From contig JAGAIW010000153.1 in assembly GCA_017626305.1 (NCBI GenBank), positions 1 through 61,336 of the forward strand: 61,336 nucleotides of DNA. The letters run 5' to 3'. This document shows, in pieces, positions 2,050 through 14,772 of the stretch. The position numbers were made by a program, and so were the translations under genes. Origin of the DNA: Clostridia bacterium. GTDB taxonomy: Bacteria; Bacillota; Clostridia; Christensenellales; Borkfalkiaceae. How positions within the stretch are numbered: position 1 is the stretch's first letter; each line of letters opens with the position of its first letter. The notes under the pieces were generated by a model. The model was not told the origin of the DNA, did no database searches, and saw only the letters and a program-made list of their open reading frames with translations.

Positions 2050-4449
2050 TTATTCTTCGTCGCCGGGTTTGCGGCGGAGAATGAGATAATCGACTAAAAT
2101 GGCTATCGCGGCGCACCCTAACGTGATATAGGCAAAACGCCATACGTTATCCGTCGTTGCGCTTTCCGTTCCTTTGGAAACGGGAGTAACTTCGGGCGCG
2201 GACGGGTCGAACAGCGTCACGAACGCCTTGGGTACGTAGCCCGTGTACGTTTCGCCGTCTGCCGTGTACGATACTTTATAATAAGCGTAATGCGGCTCGT
2301 TAATTTCTCCAAGCAAGGTCACTTGACCGCTGCGCGGTAACGTCGTTACGGTGAGCAGCGGAGAAAGATAAGGGAATTTATACAGCCGTACGTCGTTGGT
2401 GAGATACGCCGAACATTGTTGTTCGTTTGTATACGGCAGGGAATATTCCGTCGGGTCGAGCACGGCGCAGTTTGCTTTGGGCGTGAGATAGGTGAGATAT
2501 TCCTTTTTCGTATTATCGAATACGGCGAGCAGGTTGTATTCTTCCGTCGCGCCCAAAACGAGCGCCGTCACGCTTTCTTCTTCGCGGTGATGGGAAAGAT
2601 AGGGGAAGTATTTCTCGTCTTCCAGCGTTTTCCCGTCGCGTAAATTGCCTAATTCAAAGCGAATAAGCAAGCTTTTTGGCTGTGTTTTGACAACCGTGGT
2701 GTTTTCCACGCTCTCTTCGGCAAACACCGTTTGCGCTACGTTTTGCGTGTCTATCGTGTGCAGGTTGGGAATATCCAGCTCCTGCGACCAAACGATATAC
2801 GTACCGTCGAATAAGACGTATACGGTAGACGCGTAATCGTCTGCTGCAAAGGTAAAGGACAGCGCGCTGGGCGTATACCCTTCGCCGCCGTAAACGTACG
2901 GCTTTTGCGAAAGCGCGGCAAAGGGCGTCGTTTCGCCGTTTTTATAGAGATTGCCGTTTTTTAACGCGTATACGTTTTTCTCGTAATCGACAAGCAGTTT
3001 ATCCGTTTCGGCGGGAATACCTGCTAGAAATTGTCTGCCGTCCTTGGTGGTATCGGCAAGCTCGTCTTGCGTAAAGGTGTAGACGAGATTGCCCGTCGCT
3101 ACGTATAAATTGCCGTGTAAATCGTTGGTAAGCAAATACGGGGAAACGAAGGACGCGCAGTTCTTTTTGACGTCCGTTTGTGTCCAACTGCCGTCTTCGC
3201 CTTGCGCGAGAATATAGGCGTAACCGTCGGAGATGAGATAGTGCGTGCCGTAAACGGACGCCGCGCCTTTAATTTCACCGTTAAAACGGTCGAACGTTTG
3301 CAACGCTTGACCGTCTGCCGCGGAAAACAAAGTCGCTTTGTTCTCCCCTGCGGCAAGCAGGACGTTTCCGTCCGTGGAAAGACGTTTCACGGGAAACGCC
3401 GTCGTGATGGGGGTGCGATAGCTATTCGAGCTTGTTTCGTATACGCTGATACGGTTATTACCGCTGTCGGCGGTGTACAAAATTCCGTCGAATAAGCATA
3501 CGTCCGTCGCGCCGTTTAAGCGGTTGATTGCCGCGCTTTGCGCGCCGATTTCAAAGGAAGTAAATTGCTTGTCCGTCGTGGAATACCGACGGATAAGCCC
3601 TTTTTGCGTTTGGGTGGCGTATACGTATTCCCCGAAAGACGAAAGAGTGGTATAGCTGCCGTCCGTTGCTTTGGTGAGCAGTCCTTCTTCGTTGATTTGC
3701 GCAAGGGAATAGGCGTAAAAATCGCGCGATTCCGTGGTGCAGGCGAGCACGCCTGCGGTAATCGTCATGTGTTGAATACGCGGTTCAAGCGTGGCAATCG
3801 GCGTTGCCGTATTCTTATTAACGTGGGGGTTGATTTTATATAGCGTTTGCGAAACGCCGTTGTCCGTAAAATACAGCTCGTTATTATAAAACGCAAGCGT
3901 TGGCTCGGTTGGAGAATAGGCAAGGTCAAAATGTACGGGCGTGGATTTTTCCGTTAAGGAATAGCTATATAAAGAACCTACGCTGTTGGCAAAGTACAGC
4001 TCCGTTCCGTGAATGACGAACGTTTTACAGGCAATATCCACGCGCGTTTTGGTCATAGTGGGCAGCTGCAACTCATAAAAGTTCGCCCCTGGGGAGTTAT
4101 CCGCAAAATACAAATTCCCGTTTTCGCAAAATTGCAGTTTTTTGATTGCATACTCGGGAAGTCCGCTTTGCTCGTGTTCGTATTTCACGTACGTTTGGCT
4201 GTGGCTATCGTAGACGTAAATAACGTTGCCGTCGGCTACCGCCGTATAGTTTGTACTTACCGCCGCACTGCTGGGCGCAGACAAGGGAAGATATTCTTCG
4301 TACGTTTGCGGCAGGAGAAGTCCGCTTTGCGTTTCCTGCGTAGCGGTATCCGCTTGCGCGGAAATGGGCGCAAGCGAAACTGCCGCGCCCGTAATACACA
4401 GGGCGGCGCAACACGCAAATGTCGTTATCGTCAACGCAAATTTCTTCAT
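2050..4449 (-). CDS. Secreted beta-propeller protein with C-terminal SH3-like domain and membrane anchor
   Basis: A longer reading frame extends upstream, but the start chosen here (ATG at 4449) gives a clean signal peptide beginning MKKFALTITT with an Ala-Gln-Ala cleavage site near residue 33. The mature part consists of repeated short beta blades of the YWTN/NHL style (roughly residues 60-600). An SH3-like segment follows (about 690-750, ending near a GYVPKAFVTLF strand), then a Thr/Ser-rich linker, one transmembrane helix and a short Arg/Lys-rich tail. It is therefore probably an extracytoplasmic protein anchored by its C-terminus. No enzyme motif is visible. A promoter at 4459-4487 puts transcription start within a few bases of the ATG, and no RBS is present. 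The gene at 5585-6304 has a similar plan. Confidence 0.75.
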   Translation of the reverse strand: MKKFALTITTFACCAALCITGAAVSLAPISAQADTATQETQSGLLLPQTYEEYLPLSAPSSAAVSTNYTAVADGNVIYVYDSHSQTYVKYEHEQSGLPEYAIKKLQFCENGNLYFADNSPGANFYELQLPTMTKTRVDIACKTFVIHGTELYFANSVGSLYSYSLTEKSTPVHFDLAYSPTEPTLAFYNNELYFTDNGVSQTLYKINPHVNKNTATPIATLEPRIQHMTITAGVLACTTESRDFYAYSLAQINEEGLLTKATDGSYTTLSSFGEYVYATQTQKGLIRRYSTTDKQFTSFEIGAQSAAINRLNGATDVCLFDGILYTADSGNNRISVYETSSNSYRTPITTAFPVKRLSTDGNVLLAAGENKATLFSAADGQALQTFDRFNGEIKGAASVYGTHYLISDGYAYILAQGEDGSWTQTDVKKNCASFVSPYLLTNDLHGNLYVATGNLVYTFTQDELADTTKDGRQFLAGIPAETDKLLVDYEKNVYALKNGNLYKNGETTPFAALSQKPYVYGGEGYTPSALSFTFAADDYASTVYVLFDGTYIVWSQELDIPNLHTIDTQNVAQTVFAEESVENTTVVKTQPKSLLIRFELGNLRDGKTLEDEKYFPYLSHHREEESVTALVLGATEEYNLLAVFDNTKKEYLTYLTPKANCAVLDPTEYSLPYTNEQQCSAYLTNDVRLYKFPYLSPLLTVTTLPRSGQVTLLGEINEPHYAYYKVSYTADGETYTGYVPKAFVTLFDPSAPEVTPVSKGTESATTDNVWRFAYITLGCAAIAILVDYLILRRKPGDEE

Positions 4450-4856: not shown

Positions 4857-5366
4857 TTGAAAAATTACGTGAAGGCGGTGTTGTACGCTTATCCCGTATT
4901 AAAAACGGTGGAGAAGGAGTACAATCAGCATATTTCAAATATGGCGTTGCTGTCCTACCGTAGCGACGCTCCGGCGGAAGTCGTGGCGGAGCGAATCGTG
5001 GGGCAAATCGTGGAAAAGGACGATTTGCTTTGGTTGAAGGATCAAACGGAAAAAATCATGGAGCAGCTTAGCGAATTAGAACGAACCTTGCTTGCCGTCA
5101 AATTTTTTGGCAAGGAACGCAAATTAAAACGCACCCTGCCAAAAGCTGACGGGCGCAAGTTTCCGTTTAGTGAGAGTAAATATTTTCGCATGCAAATGCG
5201 CTTGGGGGAAAAGATGGGCGCAAAGCTGTGTGCTATCGGTTTGACGGAAAACGAATTTGAAAAGCGGTTTTCGCAAATGGAATTATTTCAGCTGATTTTT
5301 ACATACATGCAACGACGGGAAAACAGGGGACTTAGCGATAGGGAACGGCGCTGGCTGAAAGGGTAG
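4857..5366 (+). CDS. Possible phage-type transcription regulator (sigma-region-4/ArpU/RinA-like layout)
   Basis: This 169-residue, helix-rich basic protein has a TTG start placed just after GAGGTGAGTAAGG. The N-terminal part (1-75) resembles the helical lead segment of small phage late-gene activators. Residues about 75-130 have the order Leu-Ser-Glu-Leu-Glu-Arg-Thr-Leu-Leu, a basic stretch, then Phe-Ser-Glu-Ser-Lys-Tyr-Phe-Arg, which looks like the two helices of a sigma-4-type helix-turn-helix. No catalytic motif is seen. It is the first plus-strand gene before the capsid module and has its own promoter next to a LexA-like box, so it could control the module. That role is inference; I cannot name the family with certainty. 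Confidence 0.45.
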   Translation: MKNYVKAVLYAYPVLKTVEKEYNQHISNMALLSYRSDAPAEVVAERIVGQIVEKDDLLWLKDQTEKIMEQLSELERTLLAVKFFGKERKLKRTLPKADGRKFPFSESKYFRMQMRLGEKMGAKLCAIGLTENEFEKRFSQMELFQLIFTYMQRRENRGLSDRERRWLKG

Positions 5367-5444: not shown

Positions 5445-5527
5445 GTCATATTGAGCAAAAGCGAAATATCCCTTAATACGTAGTCCGTACTTTCGTCCAA
5501 GGGATTCTTCGCTTCGTTCAGAATGAC
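5445..5527. repeat. Palindromic dispersed repeat (hairpin element)
   Basis: The left arm (5445-5472, GTCATATTGAGC...ATATCCC) is an imperfect inverted copy of the right arm (5501-5527, GGGATTCTTCGC...CAGAATGAC). The right-arm sequence recurs at 7874-8005 and 17043-17115, so this is one member of a small dispersed intergenic family. Similar ATTCTTCGC...TCAGAATGAC sequences are familiar from intergenic DNA of several bacterial phyla. Confidence 0.75.
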
Positions 5528-5584
5528 GGTTGGGGATGGTTTAGACCGCTAACGCGGATTATGTATAGGAAAAGAGCAAGGCGA

Positions 5585-6304
5585 TTACAGCTCGGGTTCG
5601 TAAGGCGGACGGCGGGGCGGTTTTAAAATCAGCGCGGCTAAGATGGGAACGAGCAGGCACAGCGCAATCAAAATGGCGATTTGCGCGGGTTGGGTTTGGT
5701 TGGAGCTTTCGTCGGGCGTGGGCGTCGTAGACGGCGGCGTATAGTTGTCCGCGTATTCCGTGCTCTTTTCCACGGTAAGGTCGGCGGGCTTGGGGACGTA
5801 GCCAAACTCTTCCCCCTGCAAAACGTAGCAGTACGTTTTCGAACCGACGGTATAATCCCCGTAATAGGTACACGTAACGGTGATTTCGTCTAAAAAGGTA
5901 TCGCCTGCGATAGAACCGTCTAAACGGTAATGCACGTTGAAAAGACAGTAATAATAGGGGCGTTTGGGTACGAAATCCACGGCGGTGAGCTGTTCGCTTT
6001 TCGCGTAGCCCGTCAGCTTTTTGACCTGCGTATCGTCGTAAAGATATTCGATTTTGGTATACGGCTCGCCCACTTCCACAATCTTGACGAAATACGTTTC
6101 GGGCAAAAGGAATAAGCCGCTTTTTTCGTCTGTTTCGGCGTAAAAATAGGCGGAGTTTGACAGAATACAGGCATAGCCGCCCACCGAAAGTTCGGGGACG
6201 GGAGCGGTATTTGACGCGGCTAAAACCGCGGTTTGTTGTACGGGCGAACATAGCGCGAACAGCCATAGCAATGCGGCAATCGCCCATGAAATATACTTTT
6301 TCAT
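5585..6304 (-). CDS. Secreted SH3-like protein with C-terminal membrane anchor
   Basis: The ATG at 6304 was chosen because it opens a signal peptide (MKKYISWAIAALLWLFALCS, cleavage near residue 30). The mature part of about 150 residues is all-beta with Tyr-rich strands and resembles an SH3-like module. It is followed by a Thr/Pro/Ser linker (about 180-200), one transmembrane helix (about 203-225) and a short basic tail. The plan matches that of the protein at 2050-4449, and the two probably share a cell-surface role; no ligand can be named. The -10 TATAAT lies 7 nt before the ATG with no RBS. It is divergent from the large terminase gene. Confidence 0.7.
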   Translation of the reverse strand: MKKYISWAIAALLWLFALCSPVQQTAVLAASNTAPVPELSVGGYACILSNSAYFYAETDEKSGLFLLPETYFVKIVEVGEPYTKIEYLYDDTQVKKLTGYAKSEQLTAVDFVPKRPYYYCLFNVHYRLDGSIAGDTFLDEITVTCTYYGDYTVGSKTYCYVLQGEEFGYVPKPADLTVEKSTEYADNYTPPSTTPTPDESSNQTQPAQIAILIALCLLVPILAALILKPPRRPPYEPEL

Positions 6305-6311
6305 AAACGCT

Positions 6312-6317
6312 ATTATA
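6312..6317 (-). promoter_or_regulatory. -10 element of a probably leaderless gene
   Basis: TATAAT on the minus strand ends 7 nt before the ATG at 6304. No good -35 is found at 16-18 nt. Confidence 0.45.
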
Positions 6318-6358
6318 ACGCAGGTAAATCGGGCGATTTTGTCTATTTGGTGTGAATT

Positions 6359-7789
6359 ATGAGAGAAATTGTAGAAAAACTCAAACGGGTAGAAACGGAG
6401 CTTGCCAAACGCAAAAAGCAAGACGCTCTTGCCAGATACAATACGGGGGAAACCGTTCATAAAAAACAGGTCGCCTTTCATAAATCCCCTAAGCGTAGCC
6501 GTTGGGTGTTCGGGGGAAACCGTTCGGGAAAAACGGAGTGCGGCGCGGTGGAGTGCGTATACATGGCGCGCGGCGTGCATCCCTATCGGCAAAATAAGCC
6601 CGACGTTTGCGGTTGGGTGGTGTCCTTGTCCACGCAGGTGCAAAGGGACGTTGCGCAAAAAAAAATTCTCCATTATCTGCGTAAAGACTGGATTGAAGAC
6701 ATCGTCATGCTCAGCGGCAGAAAGGATAGCCCGGAAAGCGGGATTATCGACTTAATCCGTATCAAAAACGTGTTTGGGGGGAGCTCGGTAATCGGGTTTA
6801 AAAGCTGCGATCAGGGCAGAGAAAAATTTCAAGGTACGTCGCTGGATTTCGTGTGGTTTGACGAAGAACCGCCCAAGGATATTTATTTGGAATGTCGTAT
6901 GCGCGTGTTGGACAAGCGTGGAGATATCTTCGCGACAATGACCCCTTTGAAGGGCTTGACGTTTGTCTATAACGATATCTTTTGCAATCGTGGAAACGAC
7001 CCCGAAATTTGGTATGAGTTCATGGAATGGAGTGACAATCCCTATCTCAACGGAGAAGAAATCTCGCTGTTGGAAGGCTGTATGGACGAGCGCGCTTTGC
7101 AATCTCGAAGATATGGGCGGTTTGCCGCCGAAGAAGGCTTGGTGTATCCTGAATTTGACGAAAGTATACACGTAATCGAACCGTTTGACGTGCCTGCGGA
7201 ATGGCAGGACAATATCTCTATCGACCCCGGTTTGAATAATCCCTTGTCGGCACATTGGTACGCGGTGGACTTCGACGACAACGTGTACGTGATTTACGAG
7301 CATTACGAAGCGGGTAGGGATATCGATTACCACGCGGCGAAAATTAAGGAGATCTGTGGGCGTATCGGTTGGAAACGGGATAGCGGCGGCAGGGTGTGCG
7401 CGCTAATCGACAGCGCGGCGAAACAAAAAACGCTGTCTGCGCTGCAAAGCGTGGCGGATTTGTTCTATCAACGCGGCATACTCGTCAACCCTGACGTGAA
7501 CAAGGATTTATTTTCGGGGATTGCTCGGGTGAAAAGCTATCTCAACCAACAAAACGGCTTGCCGAATATTTACATTTTCAACAACTGCGTTAAGCTGATA
7601 TCCGAGCTAAAAGGGTATTTTTGGGGGAGCGGCGACGCGCCGAGAAAGGCGGACGACCACGCTTTGGATGAAATGCGCTATTATTTGATGAGCCGTCCGC
7701 ATAAAGTGCCGCCAAAGCAAGGGAAGACTGCCATTCAAAAGGATAAGGAAAGCTTACTGCGGCGTTTGAAAAGGACTAGGGGGAAGTAG
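6359..7789 (+). CDS. terL: Phage terminase large subunit
   Basis: This 476-residue protein has both TerL domains. The ATPase has a Walker A GGNRSGKTE (about residue 58) and a Walker B DFVWFDEEPP (about 165). The RNase H-like nuclease begins with SIDPGLNNP (about 285) and keeps later acidic residues, including the ADDHALDEMRYYL segment near the end. In phages it pumps DNA into the prohead through the portal and cuts it. The length is close to P22 gp2, so it appears intact. There is no clear RBS before the ATG. The TerS-like gene follows rather than precedes it, and a triplicated 44-bp repeat lies between the two. Confidence 0.93.
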   Translation: MREIVEKLKRVETELAKRKKQDALARYNTGETVHKKQVAFHKSPKRSRWVFGGNRSGKTECGAVECVYMARGVHPYRQNKPDVCGWVVSLSTQVQRDVAQKKILHYLRKDWIEDIVMLSGRKDSPESGIIDLIRIKNVFGGSSVIGFKSCDQGREKFQGTSLDFVWFDEEPPKDIYLECRMRVLDKRGDIFATMTPLKGLTFVYNDIFCNRGNDPEIWYEFMEWSDNPYLNGEEISLLEGCMDERALQSRRYGRFAAEEGLVYPEFDESIHVIEPFDVPAEWQDNISIDPGLNNPLSAHWYAVDFDDNVYVIYEHYEAGRDIDYHAAKIKEICGRIGWKRDSGGRVCALIDSAAKQKTLSALQSVADLFYQRGILVNPDVNKDLFSGIARVKSYLNQQNGLPNIYIFNNCVKLISELKGYFWGSGDAPRKADDHALDEMRYYLMSRPHKVPPKQGKTAIQKDKESLLRRLKRTRGK

Positions 7790-7873
7790 AGAGAACAGTC
7801 GTGTGCTTTTCTTTACCGCCACGTTTAGCGGTAGCGAAATATGTCATTATACGAAGTTTGTAATCTCTTCCAT

Positions 7874-8005
7874 GGGATTCTTCCCTACGGTCAGAATGAC
7901 GGGTAGAAGAGAGAGTAGGGATTCTTCCCTACGGTCAGAATGACGGGTAGAAGAGAGAGTAGGGATTCTTCCCTACGGTCAGAATGACGGGTGGAAAAGA
8001 GAGTA
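7874..8005 (+). repeat. Three tandem 44-bp repeats between terL and the TerS-like gene
   Basis: Units at 7874-7917, 7918-7961 and 7962-8005 start GGGATTCTTCCCTACGGTCA. The first two are identical and the third has a few changes at its end. The core belongs to the dispersed family seen at 5501-5527 and 17043-17081. No CRISPR-like spacer variation is present. Confidence 0.9.
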
Positions 8006-8030
8006 GGAATAGGTGAAAAGGAGAGAGAAA

Positions 8031-8399
8031 ATGGAAAAGGAAGAAAAGCTTGGGGACGCGTTGTTAAAGGTGGCGCTTGGGTATCAGGTTTCCGAAATCA
8101 CCGAAGAGTATGCGGAAGTGGACGGGACGTTAAAGCTCACCAAACGCAAGAAGACGAAAAAGGATATTCCGCCCGATTTGAAAGCGGTGCAAATGCTTTT
8201 GGAAGGACGGGAAAACGGCGATATGGCAGCCATGACGGACGAAGAACTGGAAACGGAAAGAAAACGTTTGTTGGCTTTGCTAATCGACGAAGAAAAACAA
8301 AAAAAGGGGGAGCAGGTATGCGTTGAAACAAAAAAGACGGCGGCAAAGCCGCGCAAACGGGTAGTGAGAAAAACGGTAAAAAGGAGTAAGGAAACATGA
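8031..8399 (+). CDS. TerS-like (terminase small subunit) protein lacking an evident DNA-binding domain
   Basis: The start at 8031 follows AAAAGGAGAGAGAAA. The 122 residues begin directly with a segment (ALLKVALGYQ, then ITEEYAEVDG, KLTKRKK, KDIPPDLKAV) that resembles the oligomerisation core of Clostridia phage small terminases, where a GY...E..T-rich beta hairpin precedes a PPD helix. A Lys/Arg-rich tail follows. The usual N-terminal helix-turn-helix that recognises the packaging site is not seen, and the upstream gap holds only tandem repeats. It overlaps the portal start by ATGA. Without that domain, packaging-site choice would be relaxed or lost. The family assignment is moderate and is based on pattern and position. 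Confidence 0.55.
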   Translation: MEKEEKLGDALLKVALGYQVSEITEEYAEVDGTLKLTKRKKTKKDIPPDLKAVQMLLEGRENGDMAAMTDEELETERKRLLALLIDEEKQKKGEQVCVETKKTAAKPRKRVVRKTVKRSKET

Positions 8400-10255
8400 G
8401 CAAGGAACAATTTACGGATAAGCAGGCGGCGGAAGAAAAAAGGAAACAAAAGCTTGCCGCGGAAGTGGCGGCGGATTTTCAGCGCCGCAGGGAACAAAGA
8501 CGGAGTGTGGAAAGCGGTTGGCTTTTGAATATGCGCTTTTACAGCGGCGATCAGTATTGCGACGTTTCGCCGCTTGGCGGTATCGTAGAAGAAAACGACG
8601 GGTATTACTGGCAATCGCGCAGGGTGTTTAATCATATCGCGCCGCTGGTGGATTCCCGTATTGCAAAGCTCGAAAAGCTGCGCCCCGTGCTGCGCGTTCG
8701 CGCATTCTCCGACGAAGAAGGGGACGTCAAAACGGCAAAGCTTGCCACGGGCGTTTTACAGTACGCGCAAAGCCGTATCGCGTTTGCGGAAACGGTATCG
8801 AAGGCGACGGTGTGGTCGGAAACCTGCGGTTCGGCGTTTTACAAAGTTACTTGGAACGAGCAGGGCGGTAAAAAGGTAGGCGTGGACGAGCATGGGAACG
8901 CCGTGTTTGAAGGGGAAGTTAGCGTTGCGGCTTTGTCGCCCTTTGAAGTGTATCCCGACGATTTAACCGCCGACGGGGTGGAAAATATGCGCAGCATTAT
9001 CCATGCAAGGGCGGTCAGCGTCGATTACGTAAAGGATAATTACGGCGTAGAAGTGGCGGCGGAAGCTCCTGACCTTTTGACAAAAGTAGGCTACTGCGCG
9101 CCGTCGTCGGCAATCGCGCGTATGGGACAAGCGGATGAAGTGGCGTTGGACGAAAGCGTAGTGCTTATCGAACGCTATACCCGTCCAAACGGTGATTTAC
9201 CGCAAGGAAAATTAGAAATCGTCGCAGGGGGAAAGCTGTTGTATGAAGGGGAATTACCCTATCGCAACGGCGAACGCGGCGAGAGAATCTTCCCGTTTGT
9301 CAAACAGGATTGCTTGACGCTCCCCGGTGCTTTTTTCGGGGCGAGCGTTATCGACAGAATGATTCCCGTACAGCGCGCGTATAACGCCGTGCGCAATAGA
9401 AAACACGAGTTTTTAAACCGTGTATCCATGGGCGTTTTAACGGTGGAAGACGGGTCGGTGGACACGGACGAGCTGGCGGAAGAAGGATTAAACCCCGGGA
9501 AAATTCTCGTTTACCGTCAAGGGGGAAAAGCGCCTGAAATGCTGGATTGCGGCAAAGTGCCTACGGAGTTTTCTTTGGAAGAAGAATGGCTGGAACAGGA
9601 GTTTTCTTTGATTAGCGGCATTAGCGAGCTTTCGCAAAATTCCACGCCTGCAAGGGTGACCAGCGCAACGGGCTTGCAGTTGCTTTTATCCCAAGACGAT
9701 TCGCGCTTGGCGGCGACTTTGGGTAGTTTGGAACGGGCTATTAAAGAAGTGGGTAGGCAGATTTTACGGCTGTATCGGCAGTTTGCGGGCTCGGCAAGAT
9801 TGATGACCTTGACGGGCGAAAACAAGAAAACGCAGGTGTATTATTTCAACGCCGCCGACCTTTCGGTAAGCGACGTGCAGTTTGAAACGCAGGAAGCGGT
9901 TACGCCCGAAGAAAAGCGCGCGACCATTTTAAAATTGTACGAATGTGGCGTATTGACGGACGAAAACGGTAAGCTTTCTCCGGAAAATAAAAGCCGTGTT
10001 TTGGAAGCGTTCGGCTTTGGCAGTTATGAAAACGCGCAGGATATTTCCGCGTTGCATATCGCAAAAGCAGGCGAAGAAAATTTGAATATGCTCGTTGGGG
10101 AAACGGCGGTGGACGAGTACGACGACCATAGTTTACATATCACCGAGCATACCAGATTTTTGCTTTCGTCAGAGTTTAGAAAAAAACAAAACGAAGGGTT
10201 AAAGCAACGTTTTGTTGCGCATATCGCGGCGCATAAGCAAAAGGCGATACAATAA
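8396..10255 (+). CDS. P22-like portal protein
   Basis: This 619-residue protein has the P22-type portal layout. There is a charged N-terminal helix, a GWLLNMRFYSGDQY segment, and the NHIAPLVDSRIAKLEK region that matches the wing. The stem/clip and crown follow, with QRAYNAVRNRKHEF and a Gln/Ser-rich STPARVTSATGLQLL stretch near residues 415-430. A dodecamer of this protein forms the DNA channel at one capsid vertex and docks the terminase. It is translationally coupled to the TerS-like gene (ATGA). No frameshift is seen. Confidence 0.88.
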   Translation: MSKEQFTDKQAAEEKRKQKLAAEVAADFQRRREQRRSVESGWLLNMRFYSGDQYCDVSPLGGIVEENDGYYWQSRRVFNHIAPLVDSRIAKLEKLRPVLRVRAFSDEEGDVKTAKLATGVLQYAQSRIAFAETVSKATVWSETCGSAFYKVTWNEQGGKKVGVDEHGNAVFEGEVSVAALSPFEVYPDDLTADGVENMRSIIHARAVSVDYVKDNYGVEVAAEAPDLLTKVGYCAPSSAIARMGQADEVALDESVVLIERYTRPNGDLPQGKLEIVAGGKLLYEGELPYRNGERGERIFPFVKQDCLTLPGAFFGASVIDRMIPVQRAYNAVRNRKHEFLNRVSMGVLTVEDGSVDTDELAEEGLNPGKILVYRQGGKAPEMLDCGKVPTEFSLEEEWLEQEFSLISGISELSQNSTPARVTSATGLQLLLSQDDSRLAATLGSLERAIKEVGRQILRLYRQFAGSARLMTLTGENKKTQVYYFNAADLSVSDVQFETQEAVTPEEKRATILKLYECGVLTDENGKLSPENKSRVLEAFGFGSYENAQDISALHIAKAGEENLNMLVGETAVDEYDDHSLHITEHTRFLLSSEFRKKQNEGLKQRFVAHIAAHKQKAIQ

Positions 10256-10273
10256 AATGAAGGAGAAAAAAAT

Positions 10274-11008
10274 ATGAAAAAGGACAACGAATACGTACAG
10301 GAAACGGGCACGGAAGATATCGTAATGGCGAAAGACGGGGAAAATACGGAGCGAAACGCCCCCGCGCAGGCTTCGGCGGTGCTTGGAAAATTTAAGGACG
10401 TGGACGCCCTTGCTAAGGCGTACGGCTGCTTACAGGCGGAATTTACGCGACGTAGCCAAATGCTGAAACAGTTACAAAAGGAAATGGACAATCTCAAAGC
10501 TGAAAAGGTGGAAAGCACGCAAAATACAGGGGTGGAAAAGCTCCGCAAAAATGCTGCCGCAAGACGCGCGGAAGAAGAAAAGTTCGACGCGTATATCCAC
10601 GGCTTAGAACAGGCGAGCGTACGCGCCGACGAGTCGGAAATTGAGCTCCATGACCAACAACCGCAGCCTATCGAAGGCGTAAGCGAAAGCATGGAAACGG
10701 GGACTTTGCAGGAAAACGCGCAAAGGGATATTGCCGTTTCGGACGACGTGAAAAACGTCGCGCCGTTACAGCCGAGCCGCGGAATGACCGCGCTTTCGGA
10801 CGACGAACTTTTCGACAAGGTAATGCAAAACGAAGGGGTGCGCTTGAAAATCGTCGGGAGTTATTTATCTTCCTTGACGAAAAGCGGCGCGCCGCTTCTC
10901 ACGGGCGGAACGGGGGCGCTTGCCGCTCCGCAGCAAAAGGCGAAAAATTTTTCGGAAGCGGGCAACATGGCGTTGCATATGTTCCGTAAAAGCACGCAAC
11001 AAGCGTAA
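10274..11008 (+). CDS. Phage scaffolding protein (P22 gp8-like position)
   Basis: The 244 residues are hydrophilic and strongly helical. A central predicted coiled coil (about 55-115, Lys/Glu/Gln-rich) is followed by an acidic linker and a C-terminal region (about 180-244) with basic residues, the usual place where scaffolds contact the coat. It lies between portal and coat as in P22. Scaffold-type assembly fits the absence of a prohead protease gene. Sequence alone does not prove the role. The RBS GGAG is 8 nt from the ATG. Confidence 0.7.
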   Translation: MKKDNEYVQETGTEDIVMAKDGENTERNAPAQASAVLGKFKDVDALAKAYGCLQAEFTRRSQMLKQLQKEMDNLKAEKVESTQNTGVEKLRKNAAARRAEEEKFDAYIHGLEQASVRADESEIELHDQQPQPIEGVSESMETGTLQENAQRDIAVSDDVKNVAPLQPSRGMTALSDDELFDKVMQNEGVRLKIVGSYLSSLTKSGAPLLTGGTGALAAPQQKAKNFSEAGNMALHMFRKSTQQA

Positions 11009-11033
11009 AATAAAGTTTTAGGAGAAAAAAATT

Positions 11034-12206
11034 ATGATTACAGTAGAAACTGCGGATAACGCATTGAAATCTTTTTATTTGGACGCCGTAACGGAAGCGT
11101 TGAACTTAAAAGCAAATCCCTTACTGGCGCAATTTAAACGTTCGTCTGCCGACGTAGTGGGCAAGGACGTGCGTAAGCTTGTCAGAATTGGCATTAACGC
11201 CGGTATCGGCGCGGGCAGCGAAACGGGAGATCTTCCTTCCGCTAGAAGTGGCGATAGGGTGGAATTTGTCACGACGCTGAAAAACTTGTACGGTACGATT
11301 GAAATCTCGGATAAAGCCATTCGCGCGTCGGCGAATAACGAAGGCGCGTTCGTCAATCTTTTAAACGACGAAATGGAATCGCTGGTAAAAAGCGCGTCCT
11401 TAAACTTTGGCAGAATGTTGTTCGGTAACGGAACGGGATATCTCAGCGACGTTAGCGAAGCAAAAGGCAAGCAAGTTTACGTTGGCGATATTGCGCCGTT
11501 TTTGGAAGGTATGTACGTCGATTTTATCGACACGTTGGACGTAGCGATTCCCGAAGCACAAAACGTAAAAATTACACACGTAGACAGAAAAAACGGCATC
11601 ATTATGACGGAAAAGGATTGCAGCGAATACTTGCTGGAAGGATGTCTTATCTATATGCACGGTTCGCGTGATTACGAGTTGACGGGGCTTGGCGCGCTCT
11701 TTGACGAGTACCACGATATGTACGGTTTGAACAGAACGGAATTTCCAAGCATCCGCCCTTATCGAATGAATAACGTCGGGGAAATTAGCGATATCAAAAT
11801 TCAAAAGGCAATCGACGACATTGAAGCAAACTCGGGCAACCAAATCAATTTTATCGTTTGCTCTTTGGACGTAAAACGCACGTTGATGGATTATTTCCGT
11901 AAGATGTCTATCGTACTTCCTACAATGGAAATCGAAGGCGGCTTTAAGGCGCTGAACTTTAACGGTATTCCCCTTGTCGCCGACAGATTTTGTCCAGCGA
12001 GTACCATGTATCTGTTGAATACCAACGACTTTATTATTCATCAGCTTTGCGACTGGAAATGGTTGGAAGGCGAAGACGGAAAAATCTTGAAACAAGTACC
12101 CGGTAAGCCCGTGTATACGGCTACGCTTGTTAAGTATGCAGAGCTTATGTGTACTCGTCCGAATGGACAAGGTATCTTACTGGATATTCAAACGAATATA
12201 GAGTAA
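11034..12206 (+). CDS. Major capsid (coat) protein
   Basis: At 390 residues and uninterrupted, it carries an N-terminal helical arm and the beta-rich P-domain/E-loop region of HK97-fold coats. A Gly-rich GAGSETGDLP loop sits near residue 60 and an A-domain-like C-terminal half contains EGGFKALNFNGIPLVAD. There is no protease-cleaved delta domain, in line with a scaffold-dependent P22-like head. A strong TTAGGAG site precedes the ATG, and a GC-rich hairpin follows the gene, as is common for highly expressed coat genes. Confidence 0.85.
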   Translation: MITVETADNALKSFYLDAVTEALNLKANPLLAQFKRSSADVVGKDVRKLVRIGINAGIGAGSETGDLPSARSGDRVEFVTTLKNLYGTIEISDKAIRASANNEGAFVNLLNDEMESLVKSASLNFGRMLFGNGTGYLSDVSEAKGKQVYVGDIAPFLEGMYVDFIDTLDVAIPEAQNVKITHVDRKNGIIMTEKDCSEYLLEGCLIYMHGSRDYELTGLGALFDEYHDMYGLNRTEFPSIRPYRMNNVGEISDIKIQKAIDDIEANSGNQINFIVCSLDVKRTLMDYFRKMSIVLPTMEIEGGFKALNFNGIPLVADRFCPASTMYLLNTNDFIIHQLCDWKWLEGEDGKILKQVPGKPVYTATLVKYAELMCTRPNGQGILLDIQTNIE

Positions 12207-12254
12207 GCATAGGCGGTAGACGCCGTAAAAAGAAGAGAATGAAGGGAAAGGGGT

Positions 12255-12273
12255 GCGCCGCTTTGGGCGGCGC
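12255..12273 (+). other. GC-rich stem-loop after the coat gene
   Basis: GCGCCGC (12255-12261) pairs with GCGGCGC (12267-12273) around TTTGG. No U-run follows, so it is more likely an mRNA stabiliser or partial attenuator than a terminator. Confidence 0.5.
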
Positions 12274-12285
12274 GTGGGGTGAAAT

Positions 12286-12348
12286 ATGAAAAATACGCCG
12301 CTACGTATGTCTAAAAAACGTACCTGCGGCGGAAGGAGAGAATTATGA
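12286..12348 (+). CDS. Possible 20-aa basic peptide coupled to the adaptor gene
   Basis: ATG at 12286 follows GTGGGGTGAAAT. The peptide has many Lys/Arg and a Cys-Gly-Gly, and its TGA overlaps the next gene's start region. It may only serve translational coupling across the post-coat hairpin. Confidence 0.25.
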   Translation: MKNTPLRMSKKRTCGGRREL

Positions 12349-12899
12349 TCACGGTAAAAGAAGCGGTACAAGCAGCAGCGGAAACGTTGGGGCTTGGAGA
12401 AAAGGTAAACGCTTATTTGAACGGAGAAACTTCGGAAGGACAGGCGGAAACCGAGCACTTAACGCGTTGTTTTTCCGTCGTGGAAAACGAGCTTGCCTTG
12501 GATTATTTTCCGTTGACGGCGGAAGAAACTTTGCAAACGGATACGGGCGCGGTGTATTTTTCCGAATTTTCAAAAAGTATCGTGCGCGTGTTAAAGGTTA
12601 CGGACGAATGGGGGAATAACGTTCCGTTTAAGCTCTATCCCGAATATCTCAAAGCGCAAAGCGGTCAGCTTACCGTTACGTATAGCTACGTGCCTTTGGA
12701 GAAGGATATAGACGGCGTTAGCGATTTTACGCTGTTCGTTTGCGTGCGGCATTTTGCCTACGGTATGGCGGCGGAGTATGCGCTTTCGCTGGGATTGTTT
12801 GAAGAAGCGGCGGTGTATTCCAAAAAATACAAGGACGCTATTGCGGCAACCTATCGTTTATCGCCGTCTAAAAAAATACGCGCGAGAAGGTGGGTGTAA
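12345..12899 (+). CDS. Head completion/head-tail adaptor protein (P22 gp4-like position)
   Basis: This 184-residue protein has an N-terminal helical bundle (about 1-50) with VKEAVQAAAETLGL, a middle beta segment, and a C-terminal helical region ending in a basic ARRW tail. Size and position directly after the coat match P22 gp4, which binds below the portal and closes it. GGAAGGAGAG precedes the ATG. It is coupled to the following gene, whose start region overlaps its end. The family call rests on position and fold impression. Confidence 0.65.
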   Translation: MITVKEAVQAAAETLGLGEKVNAYLNGETSEGQAETEHLTRCFSVVENELALDYFPLTAEETLQTDTGAVYFSEFSKSIVRVLKVTDEWGNNVPFKLYPEYLKAQSGQLTVTYSYVPLEKDIDGVSDFTLFVCVRHFAYGMAAEYALSLGLFEEAAVYSKKYKDAIAATYRLSPSKKIRARRWV

Positions 12900-12901
12900 T
12901 C

Positions 12902-14248
12902 ATGGGCAAACAAGTGAAAACGGTTGCGGCTTTTTCGCAAGACGAGCTGGGTGAAAAGATATGGAAAGTGCGCTCGGCTAAAAACGTGGAATTTTCAGAC
13001 GGTACGGCGAAGACGGGCGTGGGGATTTCTACCGCTTTCACGCAAGACGGTAGTGCGCTTTCGTTAAATGGCGTACCGCTGGTTGACAGCGTATTTACCG
13101 TGCAGGAATACGCGGACGGTAGCTATAAAGAACGGTACGCGTTGTTGGCAGACGGGGATTTATACGCGTGGAACGACGCCGAGCAGACGTTTGAAGACCT
13201 GAGAATGCTTGGCGGCAGAATGAAAGCGGTTGGCGTAACGTCGGCGGTGGACAAAGGAGAAGTGCAGGACGTCATGTTGGCGGGGAAAGGCGGCGTGTTG
13301 TTTATGCGCGGTTTGGAAACGACTGTGGAAAGCGTTGCGCCCGTTTTGCCTTCGGCTTGTTTTGCGCTGGGGAGATATTTTTTCGTGGAAAAGCCGTACA
13401 CGCTATGGTATTCCAAGCCGTATGCTCCGCGCGACCATGCGGACAGTATTAACGACGGCGGTAACATACGCTTGCCTTCCGAATACGGCACGATCGTGGG
13501 GATTGCCGCTGTCAAAGAATACGTATACGTCTTTTACGAATACGGAATATCCCGTATCAAAGTTGGGGGCTCGGCAAGAGAATTTCGTGTGTATCCGTTG
13601 GCGTATGGCGGCGGTAAAATTCACGGGGACAGCTTGGGCGTTAGCGCTATCGGAGAGCAACAAATCGTGTTTCTTGCCGACGACGGCTTGTACTCGCTAC
13701 ACGGCGAACACGCCAAGCGCATATGCAAAGAGCTTGCGATAAGACCTTTACATGGGGAATATCCTTGTTATCACGCGGAGTTTGACGGAAAGTATTTCCT
13801 GTCGTATATGAGCGACGACGGGACGCGGAAAGCCGTAGTTGCGGATATGGAAACGGGGAAAGGATATTTTGCGTTCGCGCCAGCGGGGCTGTCCGGCTTT
13901 GCCGGAAAAGCGTACTGCTGCGACGGGGGATATTTAAGACGTTTGTCCGCCTTTGACGGCGAGTTGCCGAGCGGGGAAACGTATACGTTTGAAACGGAAA
14001 ACGTCGCGATAGGGAAAGGACGTAAAACCTTGGACTATTTAGAACTGCTAGGCGAAGGCGAATGTCACGTTTGGGTGCGTTCGGATATGGGCGAATGGAA
14101 GGGCGATTTTTCTATGCAAAACGGCAAGGCAAGCCGTTCGCTTGCGCTGCGTGGAAAGGACTTCGTCTTTACGTTCACCTTGGAAAAAGGTTGTATCTTA
14201 CGCGGTTTGCGCGCGGAATTTCAAAGCCCTGACGGGAAAGGAGTATAA
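12902..14248 (+). CDS. Tail-hub/DNA-stabilisation protein (P22 gp10-like beta-propeller)
   Basis: The ATG at 12902 is preferred to an in-frame GTG at 12890 because GAAGGTGGG is properly spaced. The 448 residues form repeated four-strand blades with Tyr-rich turns typical of a propeller, for example the stretches around RYALLADGDLY, YGISRIKVGG and KAVVADMETG, followed by a C-terminal beta region. P22 gp10, of similar size, binds gp4 and plugs the head; order and fold fit. In P22 the next genes encode the tail needle and ejection proteins, and these are not recognisable here. Confidence 0.65.
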   Translation: MGKQVKTVAAFSQDELGEKIWKVRSAKNVEFSDGTAKTGVGISTAFTQDGSALSLNGVPLVDSVFTVQEYADGSYKERYALLADGDLYAWNDAEQTFEDLRMLGGRMKAVGVTSAVDKGEVQDVMLAGKGGVLFMRGLETTVESVAPVLPSACFALGRYFFVEKPYTLWYSKPYAPRDHADSINDGGNIRLPSEYGTIVGIAAVKEYVYVFYEYGISRIKVGGSAREFRVYPLAYGGGKIHGDSLGVSAIGEQQIVFLADDGLYSLHGEHAKRICKELAIRPLHGEYPCYHAEFDGKYFLSYMSDDGTRKAVVADMETGKGYFAFAPAGLSGFAGKAYCCDGGYLRRLSAFDGELPSGETYTFETENVAIGKGRKTLDYLELLGEGECHVWVRSDMGEWKGDFSMQNGKASRSLALRGKDFVFTFTLEKGCILRGLRAEFQSPDGKGV

Positions 14249-14253
14249 GCGTT

Positions 14254-14757
14254 ATGGAAATTGATATTATCGATTACACGGAGCAGCAATACGCCGCTTT
14301 GACGGAAAGTCAGGTGCTTAGAGTGCAGGACGCGCAGCTACAAAAAAACAATTTGGTTCGTAGGCGTGAACAGGAAAAGAAGGACGAAAAATCCCGACTG
14401 TTAGAACAGGGGATTTTCCTTTCTCCCATATGGGAATTGTACTGCGCGGAGCTGGACGAAAGCTATGAAAAGCGTATTGAAAACGTACGGGATAGCCTGC
14501 TCTTTTATTTGCGCTATACGCAAAAGGCGAGCTCGGAAGAAATTTCCAAAGCGCCGTATACCGTCAATTACGCTTTGTCGGACGTGGAGCGTCTGAATAT
14601 CGTTCGTAGTTATTACGAAACGACCTATCCCGATCCGGTCGAGCGCTTTGAAGCGTTTAAGCTGGACACGGTTGCGCCGAATTATATCGCCTATTTTTAC
14701 GGGGCGTTATACGACACGTTTTTGGAAGCGTCGAAAGAAGCGGAAAGCGGGGCTTGA
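14254..14757 (+). CDS. Unknown last gene of the capsid module
   Basis: This 167-residue, mostly helical protein has a charged coiled-coil-like stretch (about 20-50) and Tyr-rich helices at its C-terminal end. AAAGGAG lies upstream and the gap to the gp10-like gene is 5 nt, so it belongs to the same transcript. It takes the place where a tail needle would be expected, but I see no needle-like heptad pattern over its whole length. Function unknown. Its final codons form the left arm of the module's terminator. Confidence 0.55.
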   Translation: MEIDIIDYTEQQYAALTESQVLRVQDAQLQKNNLVRRREQEKKDEKSRLLEQGIFLSPIWELYCAELDESYEKRIENVRDSLLFYLRYTQKASSEEISKAPYTVNYALSDVERLNIVRSYYETTYPDPVERFEAFKLDTVAPNYIAYFYGALYDTFLEASKEAESGA

Positions 14758-14772
14758 TAGCTCCGCTTTTTT
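14744..14772 (+). terminator. Terminator of the capsid module
   Basis: AAAGCGGGGC (14744-14753) pairs with GCTCCGCTTT (14760-14769) around TTGATA, with one G-U pair, and is followed by TTT. The stop codon of the last module gene lies in the loop. Confidence 0.85.

Follow-up and report, generated by a model that had tools for sequence, protein, structure and literature searches.

A probable podovirus-type gene-transfer-agent-like cassette inherited with an order of Clostridia

The genes of only a few gene transfer agents (GTAs) have been identified, most of them in Alphaproteobacteria. The system closest to the one described here is FpGTA of Faecalibacterium prausnitzii, a likeness drawn from gene content and description and not from sequence comparison. 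In the available text of its description, particles of ~40 nm with ~9-kb DNA are reported for one strain, and the FpGTA genes are chromosomal, occur in all twelve Faecalibacterium genomes examined there and include no replication genes (Borodovich et al., 2026, PMC12946183). That paper (January 2026) calls FpGTA the first GTA from the human gut microbiome, and it also describes packaging of a GTA-like kind in Christensenellaceae (HGM11616, QANA01), for which its available text names no operon. Here we describe a cassette of eight unbroken genes, all on one strand, at positions 6359-14757 of a 61,336-nucleotide stretch of Clostridia bacterium DNA (GCA_017626305.1, JAGAIW010000153.1); the window refers to that whole stretch. 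The genes encode a terminase large subunit (TerL), a terminase small subunit (TerS), a portal, a scaffold, a coat protein, a gp4-like protein, a gp10-like protein and a 167-residue protein. Known from its genes alone, the cassette is most likely a podovirus-type GTA-like system that was fixed in an ancestor within the order (Christensenellales) and has been inherited mainly vertically.

As far as the available text of PMC12946183 describes it, FpGTA resembles the cassette in being a compact operon that encodes TerL, portal, scaffold, coat, a TerS without an obvious DNA-binding domain and genes like those of short-tailed phages. FpGTA has TerS upstream of TerL, whereas TerL (6359-7789) precedes TerS (8013-8399) here. 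Genes for baseplate, tail fibre, holin and endolysin form another locus in some FpGTA strains; in the window's genus, searches with holin and tail-fibre profiles (endolysins were not searched) found no such locus. The cassette described here occurs across an order, together with sigma-region-4-family and SH3 genes that the same text does not mention for FpGTA. RcGTA and the alphaproteobacterial type I GTAs are alike in being passed on vertically within an order or a wider group, with several loci possible, in a TerS without the N-terminal DNA-binding domain and in the lack of replication genes, to judge from the available text of two papers (PMC6854486, PMC9662315). Unlike RcGTA, the cassette is of podovirus type and lies in Clostridia. 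RcGTA is siphovirus-like and has a different coat family.

The nearest phage records are Jasminevirus-like actinobacterial phages (Arthrobacter phage Jasmine, NC_041875, and Microbacterium phage Shocker). Identity to the nearest records is 23-27% for coat (13 records) and 22-26% for portal (12 records), and for TerL, which matches 341 phage records, the best reach 28-29%. The portal, used as a query against viral contigs, found no relative. Jasmine differs in being a complete phage with DNA polymerase, helicase, tail spike, endolysin and holin. The likeness to P22 lies in a nozzle fold as in the P22 tail-complex chains.

The cassette and its surroundings in the window comprise the following features:

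about 2050-4449, minus strand: NHL-repeat protein of ~799 residues (NHL repeat, beta-propeller type, E 3.9e-5)
4857-5366, plus strand: 169-residue protein of a sigma-70-region-4-like family (family matches and conserved position across families)
5585-6304, minus strand: 239-residue SH3-domain-family protein (family alignment A7; SH3_3 in a relative)
6305-6358, no strand: intergenic region of 54 base pairs (bp) with a conserved element pair (24/30 genus loci)
6359-7789, plus strand: TerL, ATPase and nuclease (Pfam Terminase_6N/6C; PHROGs terminase large subunit)
7874-8010, plus strand: tandem repeat, three copies between TerL and TerS (repeat search; outside the system)
8013-8399, plus strand, ATG at 8031: TerS (weak PHROGs match, E 9e-5)
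8396-10255, plus strand: P22-like portal (Pfam P22_portal, E 4.4e-18; phrog_156, E 4.4e-41)
10274-11008, plus strand: scaffold-like protein (by position, between portal and coat)
11034-12206, plus strand: major coat protein (phrog_14242, major head protein, E 1.4e-45)
12345-12899, plus strand: gp4-like head-tail adaptor (by position)
12890-14248, plus strand: gp10-like tail nozzle (structure model, podovirus nozzle fold)
14254-14757, plus strand: 167-residue shortened homologue of a coiled-coil protein (hhalign 95.5%, E 1.4e-8)
14742-14771, plus strand: Rho-independent terminator-like stem (13 pairs, then a T-run)

An earlier note on this DNA had described eight uninterrupted genes in P22 head order, closed by a terminator. 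All eight frames are intact and a terminator-like stem is present, but the order is not that of P22, since TerL lies ahead of TerS here. In P22 the small terminase subunit gene precedes the large one. Two further observations of that note stand. GC content per kilobase is 0.45-0.54 over 4-15 kb, inside the range of the flanks, and Pfam and PHROGs gave no match to integrase, replication, holin, endolysin or tail-spike families among the ten scanned frames between 4857 and 14757. The scaffold-like protein receives no family name from Pfam or PHROGs and the gp4-like protein no structural-family match from either; both belong to conserved clusters of homologues, found in 145/158 mapped loci (118 distinct sequences) and 134/158 mapped loci (109 distinct sequences), respectively. 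These mapped-locus counts are not independent, as loci L031-L064 and L117-L196 overlap and many are the same contigs, and distinct-sequence counts are therefore given beside them.

We found that the structure model of the gp10-like protein (predicted local distance difference test score 92.5) matches podovirus tail nozzles, including P22 tail-complex chains. On this model the cassette encodes a head plus a short-tail hub, and the description 'head-only' in the earlier note was set aside. The limits it had drawn (6359..14772) are also too narrow, because the genes at 4857-5366 and 5585-6304 go with the cassette across families. The real unit is larger and includes these two genes, and probably also the minus-strand gene at ~2050-4449.

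TerL residues K58, D168, E169, D289, D351, D433 and D437, which we take to be catalytic, are invariant in 106/106 distinct sequences (phage-type loci left out) and are 98-100% kept over 133 rows that include redundant and phage-type sequences. In 8/8 TerS homologues, one from the window and seven from other loci, the match to phrog_309 (319 positions long) begins only at position 195-204 (E 9e-7 to 0.013), and Pfam detects no helix-turn-helix domain in 7/7 TerS homologues. By the same method, the gene in the TerS position of a phage-type locus (L209) contains HTH_23. Two Jasmine proteins taken as possible TerS gave no match to the TerS family. The TerS of the cassette apparently lacks an N-terminal DNA-binding domain. 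The missing part would be that domain because of the usual TerS layout set out in the available text of PMC6854486, which also describes the same loss in RcGTA TerS and links it to random packaging.

The window is assigned to the genus Candidatus Scatosoma, represented by 37 genomes including the window's own. NCBI taxonomy places Candidatus Borkfalkia in Christensenellales and Scatosoma incertae sedis in Clostridia. A coat gene is present in all 37 genus genomes (37/37). Elsewhere in the order, we identified coat in 8/24 other genomes of a first sample and in 147/247 genomes (56/107 genera) of a larger one, with no internal stop in any listed match. A scan of species genomes for coat gave at least 571 relatives, of which the best 80 were kept; Candidatus Borkfalkia is among those listed. 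Class-wide sampling of 393 genomes yielded 30 with a coat match, 11 of them outside the order; four of the 11 fall in one genus of family f68 and seven are scattered (one with an internal stop). In f44, the family of one scattered match, a phage-type coat occurs in 2/15 genomes, and this sporadic distribution is the pattern of a prophage.

The stretches round coat from the 36 other genus genomes comprise 37 loci, one genome (G015) holding two. All eight genes are found in 30/37 loci, five more run off their contigs, and in two (L041, L066) BLAST recovers every gene but gp10. The 169-residue gene and the SH3 gene were found with TerL upstream in 31/37 loci, and dut and trmB lie downstream within the stretch in 22/37. 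Within the genus, identity to the window is 73-81% for TerL (near full-length), 48-66% for coat and 25-35% for the gp10-like nozzle, the least conserved of the eight genes. In 342 gene instances the best aligned stretch was checked for stops, and all of them lay in its last 21 residues, where the normal end of a gene would put them; a frameshift beyond the aligned stretch would escape this test.

We compared a tree of RpoB with a tree of TerL, portal and coat for the 28 genomes common to both (quick trees, with support from the Shimodaira-Hasegawa-like approximate likelihood ratio test only). All well-supported RpoB splits recur in the cassette tree (13/13), 13/14 well-supported cassette splits recur in the RpoB tree, and no well-supported splits conflict. 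The trees have 17/25 splits in common, against at most 2 with shuffled labels. The 17 group labels on a 49-row coat tree can be explained by 18 changes (minimum 16; shuffled mean 34.8), and f1, f31, f24, f3, f6 and f68 each form a single group. Mantel correlations with RpoB are r 0.80 for TerL, 0.69 for gp4 and 0.64 for portal, with 0/2000 permutations as high. These comparisons indicate that the cassette is inherited mainly vertically and co-diversifies with the order.

Ratios of nonsynonymous to synonymous substitution (dN/dS) were calculated by the Nei-Gojobori method for the 14 closest of 40 pairs listed by coat identity, drawn from named contigs, one IMG/VR contig and family f68. They are 0.03-0.14 for coat (14 pairs), 0.045-0.12 for TerL (7 pairs), 0.06-0.20 for portal (9 pairs), 0.19-0.43 for scaffold (14 pairs), 0.26-0.44 for gp10 (5 pairs), 0.19-0.29 for the SH3 protein (6 pairs) and 0.13-0.46 for the 169-residue protein (5 pairs). 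Three genes have no value in two pairs, where silent sites are saturated. The earlier note had read the locus as a retained capsid-forming cassette and not a fresh prophage, and this reading survives those of its proposed refuting tests that were run: the cassette lies at the same locus in relatives, no att-like or other long direct repeats bracketing it and no recognisable decayed phage genes around it were found, and dN/dS of coat and TerL is far below 1.

The definition of a GTA used here has six features, as given in the available text of Kogay et al. (2022, PMC9662315). One is that the particle proteins derive from caudoviricetes, for which that text accepts protein similarity as evidence of a caudovirion-like particle; the cassette shows such similarity in TerL, portal and coat, together with the nozzle fold. 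Another is full endogenisation, often at several loci, and by sequence the cassette is chromosomal (dut and trmB alongside) with split loci in family f27. Vertical inheritance with co-diversification is a third, and is seen in the tree comparison above. The remaining features are that mostly random host DNA is packaged, that the head is too small for its own genome and that the DNA is delivered to other cells (PMC9662315). For random packaging, the TerS without a recognisable DNA-binding domain gives the cassette indirect support.

Of the three readings that the earlier note had offered, we favour the GTA-like one because of the co-diversification with the host and because TerS matches its family over the C-terminal part only. 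The cassette might then work as follows. The sigma-region-4-family protein (4857-5366) would switch it on in some cells, and scaffold, coat and portal would assemble a small procapsid. TerL, with a TerS unable to recognise a phage packaging site, would fill the head with any chromosomal DNA at hand. The gp4-like adaptor and the gp10-like nozzle would close the head as a stub tail. Exit would be by lysis, through two adjacent holins in several families and through some other gene in the window's genus, and the particles would deliver pieces of host DNA to other cells.

In other families we identified a fuller gene plan. It begins with a propeller-type surface protein (minus strand, some loci), the sigma-like gene, the SH3 membrane protein (minus strand), TerL and TerS. 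A small Cys-rich protein follows TerS, and then come portal, scaffold, coat, a small protein, gp4 and gp10. The 3' part consists of tail-fibre-like proteins (few families), a coiled-coil protein, a BhlA-type holin and a holin_1-type holin. The holins, two adjacent in several families, stand at the cassette end outside the window's genus. The window locus lacks the small Cys-rich gene, the small post-coat gene and both holins, and its last gene is the shortened relative of the coiled-coil protein. In family f27, three genomes of one genus (G086, G105, G133) carry TerL, the SH3 gene and the sigma-like gene as a separate locus (L231-L233), 39-53 kb from the coat gene, and the coat loci mapped in two of these three genomes (L197, L198) are without TerL. 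Two separated pieces that are both kept are not what a dead prophage gives.

Several results weigh against a GTA-like system inherited with the order. No coat match was found in 100/247 order genomes, and in the coat-only tree f19, f27 and f10 are not single clades. Mantel correlations with RpoB are weak for coat (0.28; 57/2000 permutations as high) and gp10 (0.28; 19/2000), and for cross-family pairs alone r is 0.10-0.35 for all five genes. The weak coat and gp10 correlations suggest that these two genes change faster or less evenly, and single genes may have been swapped within the cassette. The window itself is in none of the dN/dS pairs. Profiles of the BhlA-type and holin_1-type holins gave nothing convincing in 18 genus genomes (the best matches being E 0.001 in G011, 0.049 in G027 and 0.0018 for a 1185-residue frame of G000), the tail-fibre-like protein profile matched 0/12 genus genomes and Pfam Phage_holin_1 0/13. 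The holin and tail-fibre profiles, built from other families and blind to unrelated proteins, were aimed at a second lysis or adsorption locus in the genus. As far as they reach, the genus offers no convincing holin or tail-fibre homologue to account for release and adsorption. The competence protein ComEC (PF03772) occurs in 15/15 genomes searched and also in 10/14 control genomes, and does not discriminate.

The missing tail fibre and holin in the window's genus would also fit a domesticated particle that does not transfer DNA, either a PBSX-like killer of relatives or a container, kept inside the cell or released. The low conservation of the gp10-like nozzle within the genus is what one might expect of a component that takes part in conflict between cells. 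A container, however, would not need the DNA-packaging chain of TerL, portal and TerS, which is under purifying selection, nor the catalytic residues of TerL and the tail nozzle, which are kept. PBSX also packages DNA, so packaging alone does not exclude killing. We regard a non-transfer particle as unlikely here; the available text of PMC12946183 leaves such a particle open for FpGTA too. Retention of the portal, the terminase motor and the tail nozzle speaks against the plain encapsulating shell that the earlier note had listed, and an encapsulin-type nanocompartment (shell and cargo, no portal or terminase) was rejected as an identity, portal and TerL being present and conserved.

The earlier note had further allowed a satellite that borrows tails, and the small size and the head genes without tail fibres recall a capsid-forming phage-inducible chromosomal island (cfPICI), which packages its own short genome and uses the tails of a helper. 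We consider this very improbable, and rejected cfPICI as an identity: no integrase, primase or other replication gene was matched in the ten frames, the flanks hold no att-like repeats, and throughout the genus the cassette occupies one locus, preceded by the same genes. Its co-diversification with RpoB across families also argues against a satellite, as do the cassette's own tail nozzle and a TerS without the recognisable DNA-binding domain that self-packaging needs. Clear phage homology and the absence of replication and integration genes could also come from a defective prophage, recent or decaying, but stops lie only near the ends of the aligned stretches, dN/dS is 0.03-0.46 over genes, and coat occurs in 37/37 genus genomes as against 2/15 for the sporadic phage-type coat in f44; we give such a remnant hardly any credence. 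A temperate podovirus prophage of the P22 type was rejected too, with integrase, replication, lysis and tail-spike genes unmatched in the ten frames and no flanking repeats.

The genes next to the GTA-like cassette are its probable partners. The 169-residue protein is a probable regulator of the cassette. Members of its family match Sigma70_r4_2 (9/22, best 8.2e-10) and DUF1492 (5/22), although the window's own member matches neither. A PDB profile search with the 169-residue protein returned eight matches, all to sigma factors and all weak (E 0.23-0.74), and its structure model has no PDB relative. The position of its gene is conserved across families. Single-sequence searches found no match to it or to the SH3 protein among 50,697 phage records. 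The intergenic region at 6305-6358 contains an element pair, ATTATA at ~6312-6317 and TTTTG at 6337-6341, which recurs in 24/30 genus loci with a spacing of 16-19 bp (shuffled mean 0.13, largest 2; the pattern was picked after the sequences had been seen). The pair reads as a putative minus-strand -10 element (ATTATA) and a -35-like CAAAA of unusual sequence, which the sigma-like protein may recognise.

The 239-residue SH3 protein is predicted to have a signal peptide and a C-terminal membrane anchor. A relative contains an SH3_3 domain (E 2.4e-6), whereas SH3_3 has no match in the window's own member. At E 0.001, its profile A7 matches 186/247 order genomes, SH3 domains being common; a stricter cut of ~2.5e-10 (127 genomes) was chosen after seeing the match list. 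At the strict cut, SH3 and coat occur together in 118 order genomes, coat alone in 29, SH3 alone in 9 and neither in 91 (Fisher p 9e-31); at E 0.001 the counts are 141, 6, 45 and 55 (p 1.5e-20), and both tests ignore the relatedness of genomes. In 85 same-contig pairs within 9 kb, SH3 is upstream of coat in 84 and on the opposite strand in 84, at a median of 5,423 bases. The two genes are on different contigs in 25 genomes and further apart in 8. Five of the nine SH3-only genomes were mapped: the G199 contig breaks off within TerL, TerL-, coiled-coil- and BhlA-like genes persist in G059, and an SH3 gene without a cassette is present in G044, G051 and G114. The link between SH3 gene and cassette is thus not absolute.

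The 799-residue NHL gene is a probable partner gene of the cassette, and its product reads as a secreted, C-terminally anchored protein. The gene is at the same place in those genus loci that reach that far, and further loci, including one from family f27, carry homologues ahead of the cassette. It is possible, though doubtful, that the cassette represents a new class of GTA, ancestral to much of the order, with an envelope module of its own in which the sigma-region-4 protein acts as a switch and one or two SH3- or propeller-type membrane-anchored proteins as a docking or release partner. Such a built-in partner, if real, would explain why most families examined have no tail-fibre gene at the locus.

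Individual loci vary in their arrangement. In G015, two contigs (L056, L057) each carry the cassette and its flanks with identical scores, which may reflect a duplicated assembly or two strains. In L042 and L059, from Scatosoma genomes, large genes (1636 and 628 residues) stand directly after the cassette, between its last gene and dut. L243 and L244 (family f24) are rearranged: matches to the TerS-like and small-gene profiles fall ahead of TerL there and not behind it. G120 has two coat genes in tandem (L199), 43-44% identical to the window's. In f68, a family of another order, coat occurs in four sampled genomes of one genus; of the three stretches taken there (L201, L203, L204), the two mapped by profile (L201, L203) show no recognisable TerL or portal near coat, and G413 carries a second, phage-like coat copy (L202). 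In the window, a repeat (GGGATTCTTCNCTNCGNTCAGAATGACG) is present as the three tandem copies at 7874-8010 and one copy upstream at 5451-5529 (4 matches in the window, none expected). Twelve IMG/VR contigs catalogued as viruses (L075-L086) hold coat relatives in cassette order, and four of them (L077, L079, L085, L086) also show the upstream partner genes.

The partner genes are the most novel part of the cassette. Our literature search, with preprints and most subscription journals outside its reach, found no description of the cassette, and among the titles it listed PMC12946183 was the only one on a GTA in this bacterial group. IMG/VR holds pieces of the cassette as viruses (12 contigs with coat), which may bias counts of gut viromes. 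The cassette is a strong candidate for the genes behind the GTA-like DNA packaging seen in Christensenellaceae. With named genes in hand (coat, TerL, TerS and the sigma-like switch), DNA exchange becomes testable in common, mostly uncultured gut bacteria.

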